A stretch of 64,000 bases of DNA from Hyalangium gracile (GTDB taxonomy: Bacteria > Myxococcota > Myxococcia > Myxococcales > Myxococcaceae). Below are positions 5,409 through 51,979 of the stretch, in pieces. Below the pieces are notes generated by a model. That model did not search any database. It was given only the letters and a program-made list of their open reading frames with translations, and was not told the origin of the DNA. The stretch covers positions 186,001 to 250,000 of the forward strand of contig NZ_JAHXBG010000009.1 in the NCBI RefSeq assembly GCF_020103725.1, in the 5' to 3' direction. Made by a program: the position numbers and the translations under genes. Every line of letters begins with the position of its first letter. The first letter of the stretch is position 1.

Positions 5409-6374
5409 TCACCAGGGGCAGTTGACGACGTCCACCGTGCGCGTCAGCGTCGGCGCGCTGTTGCCGCCGCTGTCCGTCAGCGTATAGGTGACGGTGTACG
5501 TGCCCGCGACCCAGCCGTTCGGGTAGCCGAACACCTTCACCTCGGGGGTGATGTTGCCGTAACAGGCGTCGGAGGCCTCCCAGCCCGGCTCCACGTACCC
5601 GTTGCCGCACTGGAGCGTCATGTGCGTGGCGCCCTTGAGCCTGAACGTGGGCGGCTGCGTGTCATCCACCTTCACCGAGCGGATGGCGCTCACCGTCCGG
5701 CCCCTGGCGTCCCAGGCGATGTACTGCACCGAGTAGGTGCCCTCGGCGCACGTGTTCGGGCCCGGGCCGTAGGCGTCATTGCCGGAGTTGTACGTGCGCA
5801 CCGTCAGCGGGCTGCACGTCGCATCATACGCGCGCGCGCCCGGATCCACCCACACGTCCTGGCCGCACTCGAGCGTCATGTTCAGGTCGCCGTTCACCTC
5901 CAGCGTGGGCTGGCCGTTCGCGTTGGGCGTGCAGCCCAGCGTGGGGAGCGCGCCTCCGCTCGTCAGGGTAGGTGTCGGCTCCAGGCAGGGCTGGCCGTTG
6001 TAGCAGGCCAGCAGCGGGTTGCTGCACGTCCCCTCGGGGGTGCAGATGTCCGCGGTGCAGGGGTTGTCGTCGTCGCACGAGGCGTCGCTCTCACAGCCCT
6101 GCTCCCCCAGGGTGTCCAACCCGCTCGTGTCCGGGTCCGGCGCGGCCGTCCATCCCTCGGCTCCCGAGGAGGGAATCGCGGCCACGCTGAGCCCACACGC
6201 GGCTCCGTTTCTGGACGGAGTGCAGGTGAAGGGCAGCAGGCCCAACGGGTTCTCGGACGACACCTCCAGCCCCTGCTGCGTCTCCCAGGGTGTCCGGGTG
6301 TGCGCGGCTGCGGGCAGGGCTCCCAGGGCCACGAGGGCGCCAGCAATGGCACCCACGACAGTACGCTTCGTCAT
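5409..6374 (-). CDS. Secreted protein with two Ig-like (DUF5011/HYR) domains
   Basis: A 321-aa exported protein. A signal peptide (MTKRTVVGAIAGALVALG, likely cleaved after PAAA near residue 24) is followed by a Cys-rich segment with DDDNPCTADICTPEGTC, a motif common in myxobacterial surface proteins. Two tandem Ig-like repeats follow. Each has a (T/N)MTL(E/Q)CG opening, a DPGA or EPGW element, and a closing strand such as TYTVTYTLTDSGGNSAP. That arrangement matches DUF5011/HYR modules. I chose ATG 6374 because GGGGG lies 6-7 nt upstream. The ATG at 6380 would sit directly on it. Probably an adhesive or structural extracellular protein; no catalytic residues seen. Confidence 0.8.
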   Translation of the reverse strand: MTKRTVVGAIAGALVALGALPAAAHTRTPWETQQGLEVSSENPLGLLPFTCTPSRNGAACGLSVAAIPSSGAEGWTAAPDPDTSGLDTLGEQGCESDASCDDDNPCTADICTPEGTCSNPLLACYNGQPCLEPTPTLTSGGALPTLGCTPNANGQPTLEVNGDLNMTLECGQDVWVDPGARAYDATCSPLTVRTYNSGNDAYGPGPNTCAEGTYSVQYIAWDARGRTVSAIRSVKVDDTQPPTFRLKGATHMTLQCGNGYVEPGWEASDACYGNITPEVKVFGYPNGWVAGTYTVTYTLTDSGGNSAPTLTRTVDVVNCPW

Positions 6375-6642
6375 GTGCATCCCCCACGGTTGCAATCGGT
6401 CGGCGGTCGCTCCCGAGCGGGGTCAGCGCTCGAGAGCGGGGGGGACGGTCATCACGGCCTTCGGGTGCAACAAGCGCTCGTGGAAGGCCTGTGTTGGACA
6501 GGTTCCAGAGGATCCGCGAGGGCCCAAGGTGAGTGCACGCAGCGCGACGCTTCTCTCGGCCGCCCGTGCAGCCGAGCGGCGACAGGCGGAGCCCACGGTG
6601 GGTGGGGCACGGCACACCCACCGTGGGCCCTGTCCTGGAGGA

Positions 6643-6837
6643 CTACTTCTGGATGATGACGATGGTGCCGTCGGGCTTCACCGTAATCTCGACGACGGGT
6701 TTCCTGCCGCCGACGACGGCGCGCAGCGCATCGGGGCCGATCTCGATCAGCTGCCCGCTGGAGACCATCAGCTGCTGCTCGATGGCGGGGGACTCACGAC
6801 GCTCGATGCTCTTCTCGGTACGGGGGGTGTTGCGCAT
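6643..6837 (-). CDS. Small conserved-looking hypothetical protein (64 aa)
   Basis: A short ORF with a good ribosome binding site (AGGAG, 8 nt before ATG 6837), supporting that it is real. The first half is charged and polar, and the second half is a beta-rich stretch (VVEITVKPDGTIVIIQK at the C-terminus). That tail resembles a KPDGT-type beta hairpin. No membrane segment or known domain was recognised. It stands alone between the Ku gene and the Ig-like gene, on the same strand as both. Confidence 0.65.
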   Translation of the reverse strand: MRNTPRTEKSIERRESPAIEQQLMVSSGQLIEIGPDALRAVVGGRKPVVEITVKPDGTIVIIQK

Positions 6838-8940: not shown

Positions 8941-9053
8941 CACCTCATCCATGGCGTCAACTGCTCTGTTCGGCATGGCTGAAGGAGTTCCGGATGGTGG
9001 CGGGTAGCGGGAAACGACCTCACGGGCGCCGCGTCGACTATGGTGCATCCGGC

Positions 9054-10247
9054 ATGCAGCTCAACCTCGTCGAGACCGTGGCGTTCGCTGGCATCACCCT
9101 GTACGTGGGCCATGGGGTGCGTCGGCTCATCCCCCCGCTGTCGAAGTACAACCTGCCGGCGCCCGTGATTGGTGGGCTGCTGGTGGCGTCCGTGCTGGCC
9201 GCCTGCCGGAGCGCGGGGTACACGCCGATCACCTTCGACACGACGCTCCAGAGCCCGCTGATGATCGCGTTCTTCGCGAGCATCGGGTTCGCCGCGTCGC
9301 TGTCGCTGATGCGCCTCGGAGGACCGCAGGTGGCCATCTTCCTGGCCGCCGCCACGGTGCTCGCCATCGTCCAGAACGGCGTGGGGGTGATGCTCAGCTA
9401 TCCGCTCGGCGTCCATCCCCTCTTTGGAGTGCTCGCGGGCTCCGTGACGCTGGCGGGAGGCCCTGCGACAGGGCTGGCCTTCGCCCCCTCCTTCGAGCAG
9501 GCCGGAGTGGCGGGCGCGTCCGCCATCGCCATCGCGTCCGCGATGCTGGGCATCATCTCCGGAGGGGTGGTGGGAGGGCCGGTGGGCACGTTCCTCATCA
9601 CGAGGAACTCGCTGAAGTCGTCGGCGGCTCCCCGCCCGGTGGCGCAGATCGGCGCGCAGCCGGAGGGTTCCTCGGGAGAGGGCTCTGACGGCCAGGGCTT
9701 CATCAAGCACGTCGTCATCATGCTCGCCACACTCTGGGTAGGCGGATGGGTGAGCAAGGGCTTCATGGAGCTCGGGCTGACGCTGCCCGGCTACATCGGC
9801 GCGATGCTGGTGGCGGCCTTCCTGCGAAACCTCGACGACAAGACGCGGTGGCTGAGGCTGTCAGGCCCCATGCTCGAGGAGATGGGCGGCGCGGCACTCT
9901 CCCTGTTCATCGTCATGGCGCTGATGACGCTGGAGTTGTGGAAGCTGACCTCTGTAGCCCTGCCGATGCTGGTGCTCGTGGCCGTGCAGGTGGCCTTCAC
10001 CGTGGCGGTGAGCCTGTGGCCAATGTTCCGGCTGATGGGCAAGGACTACGACTCGGCCGTGATGGGAGCAGGACTGTGCGGGTTCATGCTCGGCACCACC
10101 GCGAACGCCGTGGCCAACATGGAGGCGCTGGTGCGCAAGTTCGGCCCCGCCCCGCGCGCCTTCCTCGTCGTGCCGATGGTGGGCGCCTTCTTCATCGACT
10201 TCACCAACGCCGTGGTGATTACCGTCTTCCTCAATCTGCTGAAGTGA
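9054..10247 (+). CDS. gltS: Sodium/glutamate symporter, GltS (ESS) family
   Basis: A 397-aa inner-membrane carrier with about ten hydrophobic helices in two inverted halves, as in GltS. Each half carries a Gly-rich re-entrant motif. The first is AGGPATGLAFAP at about 134-145, and the second is GLCGFMLGTTANAVANM near 340-356, matching the GLGATPTAIANM-type signature. These form the substrate site for Na+-coupled glutamate uptake. Start ATG 9054 is chosen because the family N-terminus begins there (VETVAFAGITLYVGHGVRR). No strong Shine-Dalgarno is visible. It stands alone, followed by a GntR regulator gene in the same direction 180 bp later. Confidence 0.88.
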   Translation: MQLNLVETVAFAGITLYVGHGVRRLIPPLSKYNLPAPVIGGLLVASVLAACRSAGYTPITFDTTLQSPLMIAFFASIGFAASLSLMRLGGPQVAIFLAAATVLAIVQNGVGVMLSYPLGVHPLFGVLAGSVTLAGGPATGLAFAPSFEQAGVAGASAIAIASAMLGIISGGVVGGPVGTFLITRNSLKSSAAPRPVAQIGAQPEGSSGEGSDGQGFIKHVVIMLATLWVGGWVSKGFMELGLTLPGYIGAMLVAAFLRNLDDKTRWLRLSGPMLEEMGGAALSLFIVMALMTLELWKLTSVALPMLVLVAVQVAFTVAVSLWPMFRLMGKDYDSAVMGAGLCGFMLGTTANAVANMEALVRKFGPAPRAFLVVPMVGAFFIDFTNAVVITVFLNLLK

Positions 10248-10427
10248 GGCGCGGCCCGGAACGGTGGGGCCCGAGCCTGCTCCGTGGCGCGCCAGTCCAA
10301 AACCTGTCCGACCAACCTGTTTGAGACAAGTCCGGTAAGACACAAGCATGTGTGTTCGGGCTGCCTCATACGTTGTCAGAGGCCTCTGCTTGGATGGAGG
10401 AGGCGTGCAACGAGGAGGGTGGCGGGG

Positions 10428-11762
10428 ATGGAACACAAGGGGCTGGTGTCGAGAGTGGCGGAGCAGTTGGAGCAAACGATTGCCCTGGGGCAGTGGCCTA
10501 AAGGCAGGCTGCCTTCCGAGCGGCAGATGGCCCAGCGCTATGGGGTGTCGCGCACCACCATCCGAGGCGCCCTCCAGGGGCTGGCCGCCAGAGGACTCAT
10601 CGTTCAACACCCCGGGCGACAGAGCCGTACGGTGCCCCTGGGTGAAGCGCTGTCGCTGGAGAGCCTGAAGCTGCTGCTGCCCGAGGGCCGCCAAGACATG
10701 GACCGCCGGCCGCTGCTCGAGGGGTACTTCGCCCTCAAGCGGGAGGTGACGGTGGAGCTACTGGCCGCCTGCTGCGAGCACGCCAGCCAGCAAGACGTGG
10801 AGCTGCTGCTCAATGCCAGCTTCGCGTTGAGAGATGAGGCCCGCTGGCAGGAGAAGCGCATCCGGTGGGTGGAGCGAGAGTTCGACCTGCTGAGGCTGGC
10901 GGCCCAAGCAGCGGACCGTCCCGGCCACATGTTGCTCCTGATGTCGTTGGAGAAGGCCTTCCGGGGACTGGCGGACGCGCTGCTCCCCGCGCTGCAACCC
11001 GAGGCCCTCCAGCAGTGGGCCCAGTGCGTGTTCAACGCCCTGGCCGACCGTGACGCCCAGGCCCTTCGCCAACAGCTGCCGGCGCTGCTGAAGGCCGCCG
11101 ACGAGCCGCTGCTCGCCTGCCTGGCTCCGGTACGCGATGCCCCCACCGCACACCACCCCCCTTCGCCTGCCGGGGAGGAGCCCGTGTCGGGCGAGAACGC
11201 CAGCAACTGGTCTGCTTGTCATACCAGTTCGCAACAAGTCGAGCCGACAGGGAGGCCCCCGGTCCACGAGGAGGGGGGCACCCTCGCGTGTGCCACTTCG
11301 AGCCGGAACGCACCCTCGGCCCCACCCGCCCCGCTCTCCGTTGGAGCGGTGCAGGAGAATTCCTGCGGCCGCGAACCCATGGAGGCTCCTCCCGCCCTTC
11401 GCTCCTCCACCGGAGGTGCTCCTGGCAGTCCTTGTTATCCCCCCACCCTGATGCTGGCCTGGGTGCCTCCTTCCTGCTCGGCACTGCCGGCAGCAGACGC
11501 CGAGGGCCCACCTGCCCCGTGTCCGGAAGCTTCCAATGCCGTGGAAAGGGAGCCTGTCCCCAGCGAGTATCAGGCCGCTCTGCCGATGGACGTGGGGGAG
11601 TCCTGCGTGGCTGGTCCCGGCCATGAGCTTGGAGTGGGGGCTCGCCAGCGCTCAGGTGGGCGCCTCGGACTCCAGTCGCCGCCCCGTCCTGTCCACGACA
11701 CCACCGGCGAGTTCCTGGCTTCGCGCCCCACTCCCTCCCCCAACTTCCCTGAAGAGGATTAG
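10428..11762 (+). CDS. GntR-family transcriptional regulator with long low-complexity tail
   Basis: Residues ~1-75 form the GntR winged helix (LPSERQMAQRYGVSRTTIRG, then GLAARGLIVQHPGR). Residues ~85-230 are an all-helical effector domain of FadR/FCD type. The remaining ~210 residues are Pro/Ser/Ala-rich and unstructured, and look unlike a protein domain. The DNA inside this tail (11218-11255) carries an operator-like sequence that is also found in an intergenic region at 32.4 kb. The original stop may therefore have been lost and the frame now reads through intergenic DNA. ATG 10428 follows GGCGGGG. It converges on the BatA-like gene (53-bp gap). It may regulate itself or the neighbouring gltS; the ligand is unknown. 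Confidence 0.75.
   Translation: MEHKGLVSRVAEQLEQTIALGQWPKGRLPSERQMAQRYGVSRTTIRGALQGLAARGLIVQHPGRQSRTVPLGEALSLESLKLLLPEGRQDMDRRPLLEGYFALKREVTVELLAACCEHASQQDVELLLNASFALRDEARWQEKRIRWVEREFDLLRLAAQAADRPGHMLLLMSLEKAFRGLADALLPALQPEALQQWAQCVFNALADRDAQALRQQLPALLKAADEPLLACLAPVRDAPTAHHPPSPAGEEPVSGENASNWSACHTSSQQVEPTGRPPVHEEGGTLACATSSRNAPSAPPAPLSVGAVQENSCGREPMEAPPALRSSTGGAPGSPCYPPTLMLAWVPPSCSALPAADAEGPPAPCPEASNAVEREPVPSEYQAALPMDVGESCVAGPGHELGVGARQRSGGRLGLQSPPRPVHDTTGEFLASRPTPSPNFPEED
11218..11255 (-). repeat. GntR-type operator-like repeat, copy A
   Basis: Contains CATACCAGTTCGCAAC followed by a GTCG..GCCGACAGGG block. The same series occurs on the opposite strand at 32435-32469 with two mismatches and one indel. 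TTGTCATACCA here fits the FadR-type GntR consensus TNGTNNNACNA on one strand, and TGGTATGACAA fits it on the other. It lies inside the reading frame of the GntR gene. Confidence 0.55.
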
Positions 11763-11814
11763 CAAGCAGGTTCAGCCTGAGCGCGCAAATAGAGGCCGAG
11801 GCTCGGCGAGGAGA

Positions 11815-13533
11815 CTACCGTCGCCTCGTCACGTAGAAGTCCGCCAGCAGGGCTCCCAGCAGCACCAGCAGCGGCCAGCGCGCACGGCCGGATGAGCCCG
11901 CGCTACCTTCATCCCTTTGCTCCGCCTCCGCATCCCGCTCGCCGCTGCTGCGCCCACGCAGGTCGGACTCGCGCGCGTCCAGGGCCAGCACCTCCGTCAC
12001 GTCCACCGGCTCACCGTCCCGCTCCAGCGTGTAGCGGCCCGGCACCTGCGGCGCGGGCAGGGTCAGCGCACCGGCTCCAAACACCGGCTTCTCTCCCAGC
12101 GGGCCTACCAGCGTGTAGCGAGCCCCTGGCTGCGTCACCACCGGCAGCGGTTCCCCCAGCGTGAGCTGTCTGCGGGGAAATCCCTCTCTCGCGCGTCGAG
12201 CCTCTCGCAGCACGTTGCCCAACAACACCGGCCAGGCCGGCGTGCGCTGCAGGTTGGAGCGCGCCACCTCCACGTTCAGGTGGACGCGACCCTCCTCCTC
12301 GGACACCAGCACCGCGTCTCCCGCGGTGATGAGCGCGCGGCCCGGCGGATTGTCCCCCGCCGTCCAGCGCACGCCCGCGAGTTGCACGTCGTCCAGCAAC
12401 GGGTGCCCCTTCTCCGAGAAGAAGGGCCCCAGGAACGTGCGCAGCGTGCCTCCCGCTCCCACTGTGACCTTCGCGTCCGTCCCTCGTGGGCCGATGAGCA
12501 TCGCGCCCTCTCCCGGCCCAGCCTCCACCTCCGGAGCCACCACCAGGAACCGCTCCAGCGCCTGACGCGCGGGGGCATCCAGGCCCTCCGCCAGCGCCAC
12601 TCGCACCGGGCGCGCCGCCGAAGGCACCAGCCTCGCCTGCCCGTCCTCCGGCAGCGCGTCCTGCGGCAGCGTCACCTCCACGTCCCCCGCGTTCTCGAAG
12701 GTGAAGCGTACCGTCGCCGCTCCCTCCGCTGGCAGTTGCACCTGCTCGCGCTGCTCCGTGCCCTCCTTCGCGCCCGGCCCCGGCTGCGCGCGCACCCGAA
12801 CCTCCACGCTCTCCGGCCCGCCGAACCGCGCCACCCGCAGCGTCACCGTGGCCTTCGTGCCCTCGTCCCGCCGCTGCGCGGAGACGAGCGCCACGTTGTC
12901 TCGCGGTGCTCCCAGCGCCGTCCACCTCACTGCTGGCGGCACCACGACGCCTTCCGCGGGCAGCACATCCGTGAAGAAGTGCACCCGCCGGCCCGGCCCC
13001 GCCAGCTCCTGCGCCCACAGCAGCGTGGCCGTCACCTCGTGGTCCGCCCCCTGCGCCTGGAACGACTCCAACGCGCTCAGCCCCTTCGAGGGCTCCGTCT
13101 CCGGCCCCGCCAGCACTCGTGGCGCCGAGCCACTGGCCAGCACCGTCACCCGCGTGGCGCGCTCCTCCTCCAGCCGCTTCGCCGCCTCGCGCCTCACGCG
13201 CTCCAGCACCGTCACCCCGTCCGGCCCCCGCGCCGAGAGCGAGAGGCTGCCGTCCACCACCAGCACCACGTGCCTCGCCCGCACGTCGTCGCCAAAGCGC
13301 ACGTCCGCCAGGAAGAGCGACGCCGCGATCACCGCCAGAGTCTCCAGCAGCAGGGACGCCTCGCGCGTGAAGCGCTCGAAGCGGGGACCCGCCTCCGCGC
13401 GCGGACGCGGCGTGCGCCACAGGAAGAGCGCGCTCACCGTCACCGGCTTCTGCCGCCGCCGCAGGAAGTACGCCGCCGCCAGCGGCACCAGCGCCCCCAG
13501 CGCCAGCAGCCCCCATGGGAAGCCGAAGCTCAC
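11815..13533 (-). CDS. BatA-like membrane protein with VWA domain
   Basis: A 572-aa protein and the last gene of the MoxR operon. The N-terminus (FGFPWGLLALGALVPLAAAYF) is the BatA/aerotolerance-type membrane anchor, with a second helix near 60-77. A VWA domain follows with a MIDAS-like motif DGSLS at 94-98. The middle holds beta-rich domains. A C-terminal membrane helix (WPLLVLLGALLADFYVTRR) closes the protein. The start is GTG 13533, overlapping the DUF58 stop by 4 nt (GTGA), which implies translational coupling. VWA proteins of this kind act with MoxR ATPases as chaperones for large assemblies; the client here is unknown. Confidence 0.85.
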   Translation of the reverse strand: MSFGFPWGLLALGALVPLAAAYFLRRRQKPVTVSALFLWRTPRPRAEAGPRFERFTREASLLLETLAVIAASLFLADVRFGDDVRARHVVLVVDGSLSLSARGPDGVTVLERVRREAAKRLEEERATRVTVLASGSAPRVLAGPETEPSKGLSALESFQAQGADHEVTATLLWAQELAGPGRRVHFFTDVLPAEGVVVPPAVRWTALGAPRDNVALVSAQRRDEGTKATVTLRVARFGGPESVEVRVRAQPGPGAKEGTEQREQVQLPAEGAATVRFTFENAGDVEVTLPQDALPEDGQARLVPSAARPVRVALAEGLDAPARQALERFLVVAPEVEAGPGEGAMLIGPRGTDAKVTVGAGGTLRTFLGPFFSEKGHPLLDDVQLAGVRWTAGDNPPGRALITAGDAVLVSEEEGRVHLNVEVARSNLQRTPAWPVLLGNVLREARRAREGFPRRQLTLGEPLPVVTQPGARYTLVGPLGEKPVFGAGALTLPAPQVPGRYTLERDGEPVDVTEVLALDARESDLRGRSSGERDAEAEQRDEGSAGSSGRARWPLLVLLGALLADFYVTRRR

Positions 13534-47539: not shown

Positions 47540-47722
47540 TCCCCCCAGGGCACCCAGGAAGTCACCTTCCCGCGCGCCTGCTCGAGACAGGCCCGGCGCG
47601 ATGGTGAGACGTTATCCGGTACACTTTCCGTGCGAGCGAGAAGAATAGGGTGGATGTGAAAAGACGCAGCCCAACCCCAGAGGTAGGCTAGAGTTCGAGC
47701 AATGGCCTACGGGGGGCCTGAC

Positions 47723-48355
47723 ATGATCCAGCCAAATGCACCGGTGATGTCTCCTGGCGCCGCGGGCAGGGAGTCCGCCTACTCGCGCTATGTGTCGCTG
47801 CCGTCTCCCTCGGACACCGTGCGAGGGATGTTCTTCAACGGGCTGCTGACCCTGGTGAAGACGTACGGAGGCGAGCCGGCCCTCAAGCAGTGCCAGGGCA
47901 TGCTGGGCGACATCCGTTTCGAGCGTAGCTTCATCAGCTTCTCCAGCTACCCGGCCACGGACTTCCTGCGGCTGTGCGTCGCCGCGTCCCAGGTGCTGGC
48001 GCCCAGCCTCGGCAACCCGGAGAACACCGCGCGCCAGCTGGGCATGTACACCTCGCGGGACTTCCTGGCCACCATGGCGGGCAAGTCGTTGATGGTGCTT
48101 GCGGGAGGCTCGCCGCACCGGCTGCTCGGCAGCATCTCCCAGGCCTACCGCGCGGCGGTGAGCTTCGGCGAGCGGAAGGTGTCTCCGCGAGGCGACAAGT
48201 CGCTCGTCGTCAGCTACACGCGGGACTTCTTCCCGCCGGTCCACACCGAGGGCGTGCTGCTGGCGGTGCTGGAGGCGCTCAAGGTGAAGAATCCCCAGGT
48301 GCGCTCGCGCTCCCTGGGGCTGCTCGACAGCGAGTACGAGGTGACGTGGGAGTAG
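47723..48355 (+). CDS. DUF2378 (TIGR02265) myxobacterial family protein
   Basis: A 210-aa protein. Its core (SPSDTVRGMFFNGLLTLVKT, FERSFISFSSYPATDFLRLC and PHRLLGSISQAYRAAVSFGE) matches the DUF2378/TIGR02265 family, which is largely confined to myxobacteria. The function is unknown. ATG 47723 is preferred because a G-rich block lies 6 nt upstream; ATG 47702 gives a 217-aa form. It is divergent from the Coa1-like gene and convergent with the kinase gene. Confidence 0.82.
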   Translation: MIQPNAPVMSPGAAGRESAYSRYVSLPSPSDTVRGMFFNGLLTLVKTYGGEPALKQCQGMLGDIRFERSFISFSSYPATDFLRLCVAASQVLAPSLGNPENTARQLGMYTSRDFLATMAGKSLMVLAGGSPHRLLGSISQAYRAAVSFGERKVSPRGDKSLVVSYTRDFFPPVHTEGVLLAVLEALKVKNPQVRSRSLGLLDSEYEVTWE

Positions 48356-48398: not shown

Positions 48399-50237
48399 CT
48401 ACCGCTGGATCGCGGGGAGCGACATCGTCATCGGGCGCATGCGCCGCTGAAGCGCCCAGTAGTAGCGGTGCCCGGGGATGTTGAGCGGATCCAGCGTGAG
48501 CGCCTGGGTGTAGCACTGGAGCGCCGCCTTCAGGGCCTCCTGCGCCTCCAGGCTCCGGGCCTGGACGAAGAGCGCCTGGGCCTGGGCCTCGGAGCCCGGC
48601 CGTGCGCAGAGGAAGGCCCGACGCATGGGCTCCACCTGCTGCTCCGAGAGCCCCGCGGCGATGCACCGGGCGATGCCGAAGGTGTTGCCCCGGCTGGCAT
48701 CGAAACCCGCGCGGGTGAGCGGATCGCCCAGCGTGCGCCGGGCGGCGTCCACGCGGGCGCGCAGCAGCTCCAGCTCGCGGCGCTGGCTTCGCGGAAGGGT
48801 GCGGCCCCAGAAGTGCGCCACGCGGTTGACGGCGGCCTCGCAGCGCTGGCGGATCTCATCGAAGCTCGCCGTGTTCGGCAGGCCCAGGAAGGTGTAAGGG
48901 TCCTGTCCGACGGCGGCGGTGCGAGAGAGGAGCTGCGCCAGCTCGGGGTCCGGCGGAGGCTCGGCGGCGCCAGCGCTGGACTGGGCCACCAGGGCGGTCA
49001 GCATCTCCGAGGGCTCGGCGAAGTGGACGAAGAACCCGGCGGACACCCCCCAGGCGACCGCCTCGTCCTGGGAGACGTGGCGCACCACATCCCCCACGCA
49101 GACGAGCGAGCGTCCCTGGAAGGAGAGCTCCAGGGGCAGCCGGGCCGCGAGCGGCGGCGGCGGCCCGTCGAAGATGACGAAGAGGCCCTCGGAGGTGACG
49201 TCGCTGACGCGGACCGGAAGCGGCTCGAGGCTGCCCAGGTTCCCCACGCGCACCTGCAGGCCCATGGGCTCCTGGGTGCTCGGGGCCACGGCCTCCAGCG
49301 TCATCGTGGGCCGGGACATGCGGCGCTGGGCCGTGATGAGCGCGAGCTGGAAGTCCCGCGCGCTGGGGAAGCGCTCCTCGGGCCGCCGGGCGATGGCCTG
49401 CATCATCACCATGGACAGCACGGGAGGAATCCGAGCGTCCAGCGCGTGCGGCGCCGGCGGTCGCAGCTCCTGCTGCTTGAGGAGCACCTCGCCCATGCGG
49501 CCACGGCCGAAGGGCAGGCGCCCGGTGAGGAGCCGGTAGCCGATGACGCCCAGCGCGTACACGTCCATGCGGGTGTCCGCGGCGGAGGTCTCCCACTGCT
49601 CCGGAGCCATGTACGCGGGCGAGCCCAGGGAGACGCCAGCGGCCATCTCCTCCTGGGAGAAGCACGCGGACAGGACGCTGGCCATGCCGAAGTCGAGCAC
49701 CTTCGCCAGGCGCTGGCCCTGCTTGTCACGGGTGATGACGACGTTGTCCGGCTTGAGATCGCAGTGCACCACGCCGCGCGCGTGCGCGGCCTCGAGCCCC
49801 TCGAGCACCTGGATGAGCAGGGCCGTGGCGTCCACCGGCGACAGCGGCAGCGGCATGCACGACAGCGGCTCGCCCTCCACGTACTCCATGAGGATGGACG
49901 GCAGGCCGCCGGGGCCCGGCCGCGCATCCAGCACGCGCGCCACGTTGCGGTGGAGGACGCGGCTGGCGGCCTGGGCCTCCACATAGAAGCGGGTGCGGAC
50001 GTTGGCATTCGCGGCCAGCGGCGGGTGCAACACCTTCACGGTGAAGCGCGCCCCGGTCGGGGGATGCATGGCCAGATACACGGCGCCCACGGCCCCGAGC
50101 CCGAGCAGGCGCTCGAGGATGAGGGGACCATGCCGCTGACCTACGAGAGAATTGACCTCGTCCATCTCGGTGGCACCGGTGAACGCCGGGCATGCACTCC
50201 CGGCCGGATGAACTGCCTGGCAGCGAACGCATCCCAT
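48399..50237 (-). CDS. Ser/Thr protein kinase with PilZ and J-like domains
   Basis: A 612-aa protein. A short Cys-containing start (MGCVRCQAVHPAGSACP) may bind zinc. A Hanks-type kinase domain follows: K68 in RFTVKVL, catalytic HCDLKPDN at 158-165, DFG (D182) and APEQ. Next come a PilZ-like domain (~330-430, VRVSDVTSEGLFVIFDGPP), a J-like domain (~455-520, YTFLGLPNTASFDEIRQRC) and a C-terminal TPR-like helix pair. PilZ domains bind cyclic-di-GMP, so kinase output may respond to it. That is inference; the RxxxR motif is not obvious. Confidence 0.85.
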   Translation of the reverse strand: MGCVRCQAVHPAGSACPAFTGATEMDEVNSLVGQRHGPLILERLLGLGAVGAVYLAMHPPTGARFTVKVLHPPLAANANVRTRFYVEAQAASRVLHRNVARVLDARPGPGGLPSILMEYVEGEPLSCMPLPLSPVDATALLIQVLEGLEAAHARGVVHCDLKPDNVVITRDKQGQRLAKVLDFGMASVLSACFSQEEMAAGVSLGSPAYMAPEQWETSAADTRMDVYALGVIGYRLLTGRLPFGRGRMGEVLLKQQELRPPAPHALDARIPPVLSMVMMQAIARRPEERFPSARDFQLALITAQRRMSRPTMTLEAVAPSTQEPMGLQVRVGNLGSLEPLPVRVSDVTSEGLFVIFDGPPPPLAARLPLELSFQGRSLVCVGDVVRHVSQDEAVAWGVSAGFFVHFAEPSEMLTALVAQSSAGAAEPPPDPELAQLLSRTAAVGQDPYTFLGLPNTASFDEIRQRCEAAVNRVAHFWGRTLPRSQRRELELLRARVDAARRTLGDPLTRAGFDASRGNTFGIARCIAAGLSEQQVEPMRRAFLCARPGSEAQAQALFVQARSLEAQEALKAALQCYTQALTLDPLNIPGHRYYWALQRRMRPMTMSLPAIQR

Positions 50238-50514
50238 CAACGCCACCCCCACGTGAAACCCCCACCCACGCAATGCGTGAGCGGGATCACTGCAACGTTC
50301 GTGCAGGGGGCAGTCGTGGCCTACCCGACGCTCGAACCCCTCGAAGTCGCGAGGAGGGGCCCGCCACGGGGGGCGAGGGGACCGTCATTTTTACCGGAGC
50401 CCCCTTCCGGGAGGCTCCAGCATCTACCGGCTTTTCCGAGATTGCCTGTCATCCGCCGCGGGGTGCCACAGGTGGTGCGTTCTGCAACGCTGCGCGGCGA
50501 GGGAGCCGGTGCGC

Positions 50515-51189
50515 CTACCGCTTGCGCACATTGGCGGCGCGCTGGAGCACCGTCTGCTTCCGGGTGCCCTCCTCGCCGCGCATCCACTCCTTCATGGCGG
50601 GCACCACCTGCTTGCTCCAGGCACGGCCCGCGCGCACGGTGATGAAGGCCTCCACCAGGGTGTGGACGATGTTGGAGAGCTGCTCGACCAGGTAGAGCCG
50701 CTCGCCGAGCTGGGAGTCCTCATCCTCGCTCATCAGCTGAGGGAGCTTGGCGGCGCGGAGGTCGAGGAACTCGGCGTCCAGCGTCGTCTCATACACCTTC
50801 TCGCCGTGGGTGAGCATCAGGCGCGCCTGGTGGACGAGCAGGCCGCGATCCAGCGAGTGCTTCACCTGCTCCGAGTAGGGAGCCATGGCGCCGCGAGCCG
50901 ACAGCTCGGTCACGTCGCCGCTGACGCCCTTGAGCACCACGCGCCCGAGGAAGAGGACGACGACGCCGGCCTTCTCGAACTCGACCAGCGGCTCGCCGGC
51001 CTCCGAGCGCCACAGCAGCCAGGTGAGGAACTCCCGGCCCAGGTACGCCTTGCCGCGCAGCAGGGCCTCGCGAGCCTTGCCACGTTCGACCTCGGCCTCG
51101 TCCTGCTTCTCCTCGGTGGCGGCGCCATCGATGCCGACCTCACCGCGCATGAAGGCCGCTTCCTGGCGGGCCTGCTCACGCTTCCCCAT
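50515..51189 (-). CDS. RdgC C-terminal half, separate gene
   Basis: A 224-aa protein. REFLTWLLWRSEAG, TTLDAEFLDLRAAKLPQL and RLYLVEQLSNIVHTLVEAF match the C-terminal part of RdgC, the ring-shaped DNA-binding protein that inhibits RecA. ATG 51189 overlaps the stop of the N-terminal-half gene by 14 nt, so the two are translationally coupled. The combined length (about 440 aa) exceeds the ~300-aa RdgC of enterobacteria. Confidence 0.72.
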   Translation of the reverse strand: MGKREQARQEAAFMRGEVGIDGAATEEKQDEAEVERGKAREALLRGKAYLGREFLTWLLWRSEAGEPLVEFEKAGVVVLFLGRVVLKGVSGDVTELSARGAMAPYSEQVKHSLDRGLLVHQARLMLTHGEKVYETTLDAEFLDLRAAKLPQLMSEDEDSQLGERLYLVEQLSNIVHTLVEAFITVRAGRAWSKQVVPAMKEWMRGEEGTRKQTVLQRAANVRKR

Positions 51190-51829
51190 GACGCACCTCC
51201 TCCACCGGCAGCTCGGCCGCCAGCTCGACACCGATCAGCTCCGCGGTCGGCCCCAGGGCCGACTCCTCGATGCCCATGCGCGCGGCGGCGGCGGCGGGGA
51301 TGAGCGGAGTGAGCTTCACCTTGAACGCCGTCTCGACACCGTTGAGCACCTCCTCCACGGCCTTGCGCGAGGCGGCCCAGACTTGCAGCTGCTGGGTCTT
51401 CAGGTTCCAGCTCACGTCATGCACCTTGGTGATGGGCACGGCGCGGTTGCGGAGCATCTGGCGCAGCGAGGAGCGGTTCTCGGTCTTCTCTCCGCGGCTG
51501 GGGGGGCGGCCCTTCTCCTTCTGGAAGGCGGCGGCCCACTTGTCGACCTCGGCGCGGAGCACGGCGCCCGGAATCTTGATCTGGTCGATGCGGTAGGAGA
51601 ACAGGGCGTACTCCCCATAGAAGAGGCTGCCGGCGGAGAACTCGGAGGCGTCGTGGTTCTCCAGCTCGACGAAGCCGGCGGCTCGCTCCTCCTCGGAGCG
51701 GCGGTCGATGGGGGCGAAGGCACGGGCCTTGAGGGCGCGAGACAGCGAGCGCTTGAGGTCCGCGGCGGCTCCCTCGGCGGGCTCGACGAGGAAGCGTGAC
51801 AGGGTGACGGCACCACGCAGGACGGGCAT
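51176..51829 (-). CDS. RdgC N-terminal half, separate gene
   Basis: A 217-aa protein. VTLSRFLVEPAEGAAADLKRS and ALFSYRIDQIKIPGAVLRAEV correspond to the RdgC N-terminal domains. RNRAVPITKVHDVSWNLKTQ is also shared with RdgC. A frame break separates it from the C-terminal gene, but the overlap suggests a stable two-gene arrangement rather than an error. It is divergent from argS, 150 bp away. Confidence 0.75.
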   Translation of the reverse strand: MPVLRGAVTLSRFLVEPAEGAAADLKRSLSRALKARAFAPIDRRSEEERAAGFVELENHDASEFSAGSLFYGEYALFSYRIDQIKIPGAVLRAEVDKWAAAFQKEKGRPPSRGEKTENRSSLRQMLRNRAVPITKVHDVSWNLKTQQLQVWAASRKAVEEVLNGVETAFKVKLTPLIPAAAAARMGIEESALGPTAELIGVELAAELPVEEVRHGEA

Positions 51830-51979
51830 GAGGCGCGGCACAATGAGGAGAGCAGATGCGTCAGTCAAGCTACCTGGGGTACGACACCTATCAGAGGGTG
51901 CACGGAAGCCGTGAAGCCCGGGCGGATTCTGCCTAGATTGCGCAGCCCTCAAGGCCAGTGACTGGAGAAAGACGTCCCC

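Follow-up and report, generated by a model that had tools for sequence, protein, structure and literature searches.

RdgC-superfamily (PF04381 fold) proteins occur in a conserved two-gene form, the adjacent genes N and C of Hyalangium gracile encoding on separate chains what appear to be the 2 halves of an RdgC-like protein, with the domain identity of N established by sequence comparison and that of C by predicted fold. This arrangement is old and conserved, in myxobacteria and in one other bacterial phylum. Canonical RdgC binds DNA as a ring-shaped homodimer and limits RecA, and it has so far been known mainly from Proteobacteria. We consider it likely that N and C are separate subunits of an RdgC-like DNA-binding protein, assembled non-covalently and most likely as N2C2, that holds DNA and tempers recombination. 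The initial annotation had described N- and C-terminal RdgC-like reading frames of 217 and 224 aa with a 14-bp overlap, together longer than single-chain RdgC, and both points hold. The 2 ORFs exist in different frames on the minus strand of the window (the whole 64,000-nucleotide stretch of DNA that was analysed), C being +1 relative to N, and they sum to 441 aa versus 303 aa for RdgC, the surplus consisting of a 40-aa tail on N and a 48-aa N-extension and 35-aa C-extension on C (Table 1).

Table 1. Features of the N-C gene pair, with positions in the window, and its single-chain relatives
Feature	Position	Strand	Basis
Gene N (P0001), RdgC-like centre + tip domain protein, 217 aa	51829..51176	-	Pfam, model, profile
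Gene C (P0002), RdgC-like base-domain protein, 224 aa	51189..50515	-	model fold
14-bp overlap between the end of N and the start of C	51176..51189	-	ORF coordinates
N residues 88-132, two-helix tip segment	51434..51568	-	model helices 88-106, 112-129; net charge +6
C residues 49-189, base domain proper, containing the G..FLTWLL helix	50623..51045	-	VIA-align range
Shine-Dalgarno-like GGAGGAGGT ahead of C, within the 3' end of N	51195..51203	-	sequence
TTGACT-N17-CATTGT hexamer pair, 10 nt upstream of the N start codon, no Shine-Dalgarno	51840..51868	-	sequence
Single-chain relative, Geoalkalibacter plasmid pGSUB1, 396 aa			
Single-chain relative, IMG/VR phage contig L212, 372 aa			
Single-chain relative, Myxococcota G163, 346 aa			
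Single-chain relatives, Sumerlaeota G215 and G222, both genomes also with the two-gene pair			

The assignment of N is straightforward. It scores 39.1 bits against the Pfam RdgC family PF04381 (gathering cut-off 25), matching only profile positions 20-156 of 298, and therefore corresponds to the first domain of an RdgC-like protein. A profile search of the PDB with N matched 2owl (7e-15), profile-profile comparison with canonical RdgC gave a probability of 99.2, and the AlphaFold2 model (pLDDT 90.3) superposes on residues 1-167 of 2owy with Z 12.1 and rmsd 2.9 over 166 aligned residues, the fold of the centre and tip domains. The tip segment is basic (+6 by charge count), and the tip-end “RAF” of RdgC, whose phenylalanine is important for ring opening, is aligned with “RAV” in P0001 in the profile alignment. 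Both the N and the C protein have a near-neutral net charge overall, which counts against the DNA-holding assembly that we favour.

Gene C is labelled “hypothetical protein” wherever an annotation was seen; sequence searches with P0002 alone gave no match in Pfam, NCBIfam, PHROGs, or the PDB, and the profile A4 found a sole, unrelated PDB match at E 0.16. When a profile of 55 C relatives was compared with a ten-protein canonical RdgC profile, the two aligned collinearly over positions 185-298 (probability 64%, E 6.7e-5), which is the place expected for a C-terminal RdgC half. An AlphaFold2 model of C built from a 53-sequence alignment (mean pLDDT 89.5) had 2 Foldseek matches with E <0.001 among 350,542 PDB chains, both of them E. 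coli RdgC (2owl chains), and VIA-align placed its residues 50-189 on residues 171-304 of 2owy with Z 10.5 and rmsd 4.0 over 120 aligned residues, the next non-RdgC chain scoring 4.2. Across a 53-sequence alignment G51 and T56 are invariant and L55, T56, and W57 near-invariant. By sequence alone C is only weakly tied to canonical RdgC, and it is the modelled fold that carries the case for an RdgC base domain. Since the models of N and C tile RdgC without overlap (2owy 1-167 and 171-304), the break falls in the linker between the centre/tip and base domains.

The initial annotation raised the possibility of a fixed split, and a search of related genomes for the same break now upholds it. Among 59 relatives, N and C were present in the same 39 genomes. 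With broad profiles applied to 195 Myxococcota genomes, N was found in 121, C in 120, and both in 119, leaving 2 genomes with N only and 1 with C only; these 3 exceptions are one genome with a single-chain gene (G163) and 2 in which the genes are cut by contig ends (G011 and G106). In each of the 119 pairs N comes first and C lies next to it on the same strand. Both genes are under purifying selection, with pN/pS of 0.17-0.51 against 5 relatives. In genome G035 a partial repeat of the C-terminal part of gene C stands alone on contig C120, away from the contig of the main pair, and is apparently a duplicate in decay, and a Corallococcus-like gene pair appears in an assembly labelled Comamonas sp. 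KCTC 72670 (BNCN01000010.1) that is probably mislabelled or contaminated.

The same 2 genes recur in Sumerlaeota, where of 40 genomes 31 have N, 30 have C, 29 have both, 3 have one half only, and 8 have neither. Here the halves are unlinked in 11 of the 29 genomes with both: in G230 they share a contig but are separated by 1.8 Mb, in G223 the distance is 79 kb, and in the others they are on different contigs. Inspection of several unlinked N loci found no C within 1.5 kb. These unlinked pairs indicate 2 polypeptides acting in trans, and that the halves are kept together even so is the strongest sign of separate polypeptides with a shared task. Two of the 31 N-bearing Sumerlaeota genomes, both drafts, have no C match, which counts against the two-subunit reading. 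In the Sumerlaeota genome G214, N and C lie on the same strand separated by about 0.4 kb or more. An N-C pair, annotated “RdgC” and “hypothetical protein,” is also present on a Nitratidesulfovibrio plasmid, where it adjoins a SAVED / Mov34 / ThiF / nucleotidyltransferase cluster (9049-13346) that resembles a CBASS-type defence operon.

What is observed, then, is 2 conserved and selected genes that are co-retained even if unlinked; co-expression, complex formation, stoichiometry, a ring, DNA binding, and any effect on RecA or recombination are what we infer from this. In the arrangement that we favour, N would supply the centre and tip domain and C the base (dimerization) domain. With base and centre/tip divided between chains, 2 copies of N and 2 of C would be required for a ring, and the non-covalent assembly would therefore probably be N2C2, with base-base contact through C and tip-tip contact through N, holding DNA like the RdgC dimer and tempering recombination. 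The earlier suggestion that a split alters how the putative ring assembles is plausible on these grounds. Alternatively, N and C could be neighbours of common origin that now function apart from each other, N binding DNA as a monomer and C forming a dimer by itself or regulating N, with no ring. The unlinked loci of the 11 Sumerlaeota genomes and the lineage-specific extensions of C would fit such a divergence, but near-perfect co-retention (119/122 and 29/32 genomes) and the existence of natural single-chain versions are the usual marks of partners in one complex, and we regard separate functions as rather unlikely.

Expression of the pair as 2 polypeptides is suggested by the signals ahead of each gene. 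Of 15 relatives, 14 have a TTGAC(G/T)-N17-ATnnT pair ahead of N, at 10 nt from the ATG in 13 of them and at 12 nt in the other, and these conserved hexamers at a near-fixed distance from a start codon with no Shine-Dalgarno sequence suggest leaderless translation of N, likely from a leaderless mRNA. A consensus promoter scanner did not flag the hexamer pair of the window. Most relatives have a GGAGG-type (GGAGGTG-like) ribosome-binding site upstream of C, suggesting that C is translated in a Shine-Dalgarno-led, coupled fashion. The DNA that carries this site and the C start codon also encodes, in the frame of N, the conserved N tail, “EV.HGEA” in close relatives. N and C would accordingly be co-expressed from a single leaderless-type promoter, C being translated from its own ribosome-binding site within the 3' end of N. 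Gene context gives no function, since argS and the kinase have stayed with the pair at just 2 of 64 loci, a third locus having a weak kinase match only. In the window, a DUF2378 protein (47702-48352, plus strand, 138 bits), of a family of unknown function, adjoins the Ser/Thr kinase gene (48399-50273).

Programmed ribosomal frameshifting could in principle fuse both frames into one polypeptide, and the 14-bp overlap, the commonest junction among the inspected loci, is indeed kept in most close relatives. The junction varies, however: C is +1 relative to N in 95 of the 119 pairs, +2 in 20, and in frame in 4, and overlaps of 8 bp and 1 bp and intergenic gaps of 58 and 207 bp also occur. These varied junctions and all 3 relative frames, together with the good Shine-Dalgarno sequence ahead of the C start and the unlinked genes of some Sumerlaeota, argue against frameshifting, which we reject as highly improbable. 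An artefact of sequencing or assembly, or decay of rdgC to a pseudogene in this strain, is more improbable still and is likewise rejected, for although overlapping halves out of frame are the typical appearance of a frameshift error, the identical split occurs in 119 Myxococcota and 29 Sumerlaeota genomes, C has its own Shine-Dalgarno sequence and start, and both genes are under selection.

That the pair arose by division of a single rdgC, as the word “divided” in the initial annotation implied, is not borne out, since the two-gene state is the deep and common one in the family. Single-chain relatives of 336-396 aa do occur, on phage (viral) contigs, on a plasmid, and, as divergent copies, in 3 genomes. 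They belong to the same family, having an N domain and an LG..FLTWL-type C domain in the same order as N then C, but fused in one chain. The Geoalkalibacter protein aligns over 98% of its length with the 2 Nitratidesulfovibrio plasmid genes; it is followed after 3 bp by a gene for a 189-aa hypothetical protein (6102-6671). A scan of viral contigs with A1 found 3 similar fused genes and one with P0003 found none, while in 50,697 phage records P0001 matched solely the canonical-type RdgC of Vibrio phage HY01 and P0002, P0003, and P0006 matched nothing. In maximum-likelihood trees the 5 single-chain forms are scattered, 2 of them nested with strong support among the two-gene Sumerlaeota, and fission from a single rdgC is therefore not the sole possible history. 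Repeated fusion appears at least as likely from these trees, in which several single-chain branches are long and there is no reliable root.

How should such a protein be classified? It shares with RdgC (E. coli 2OWL, P. aeruginosa 2OWY; PF04381) both domains, their order, and their folds, and differs in having 2 polypeptides, extra tails, and a C half that Pfam, NCBIfam, and PHROG do not detect. N reaches at best 33.2 bits against the NCBIfam PRK00321 RdgC models, below their cut-offs of 227 or more, and in place of the canonical single chain of about 300 aa there are 2 genes of 217 and 224 aa, so the pair is not to be filed as canonical RdgC. Among other relatives of the fold, for which we follow the centre, tip, and base domain names of PMC11077077, Lambda RexA, which has a globular and a dimerization domain, is reported there to be structurally related to RdgC and was aligned to the RdgC centre and base domains only; it is likened to the pair by that description, but is a single-chain phage exclusion protein. 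The N model also resembles CENP-N (Z 7.8), and CENP-N/CENP-L (Chl4/Iml3) of the inner kinetochore is a heterodimer on an RdgC-like scaffold that binds centromeric DNA (PMC11077077), although each eukaryotic subunit contains both domain types whereas here there is one domain per subunit. The RdgC-histone operon protein is reported to have an RdgC-like fold but is a single chain with extra domains, from Halobacteria and Bacillus (PMC11390915).

We found no published two-gene RdgC in the open-access literature searched. The pair gives RdgC a new architecture and widens its range to Myxococcota and Sumerlaeota, and it provides a lead on the function of the unannotated gene C, which stands beside N in 119 of the 195 sampled Myxococcota genomes. 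A bolder possibility, which we put forward only tentatively and think somewhat doubtful, is that RdgC-type rings are obligate N2C2 clamps in whole phyla, in which control of one subunit would allow the cell to open, load, or limit the ring, and that the two-subunit form may predate the one-chain proteobacterial RdgC, which would then be a fusion. In any case, separately expressed domains would allow ring closure, DNA contact, and the RecA block to be tested easily for each domain, which is hard with one chain.
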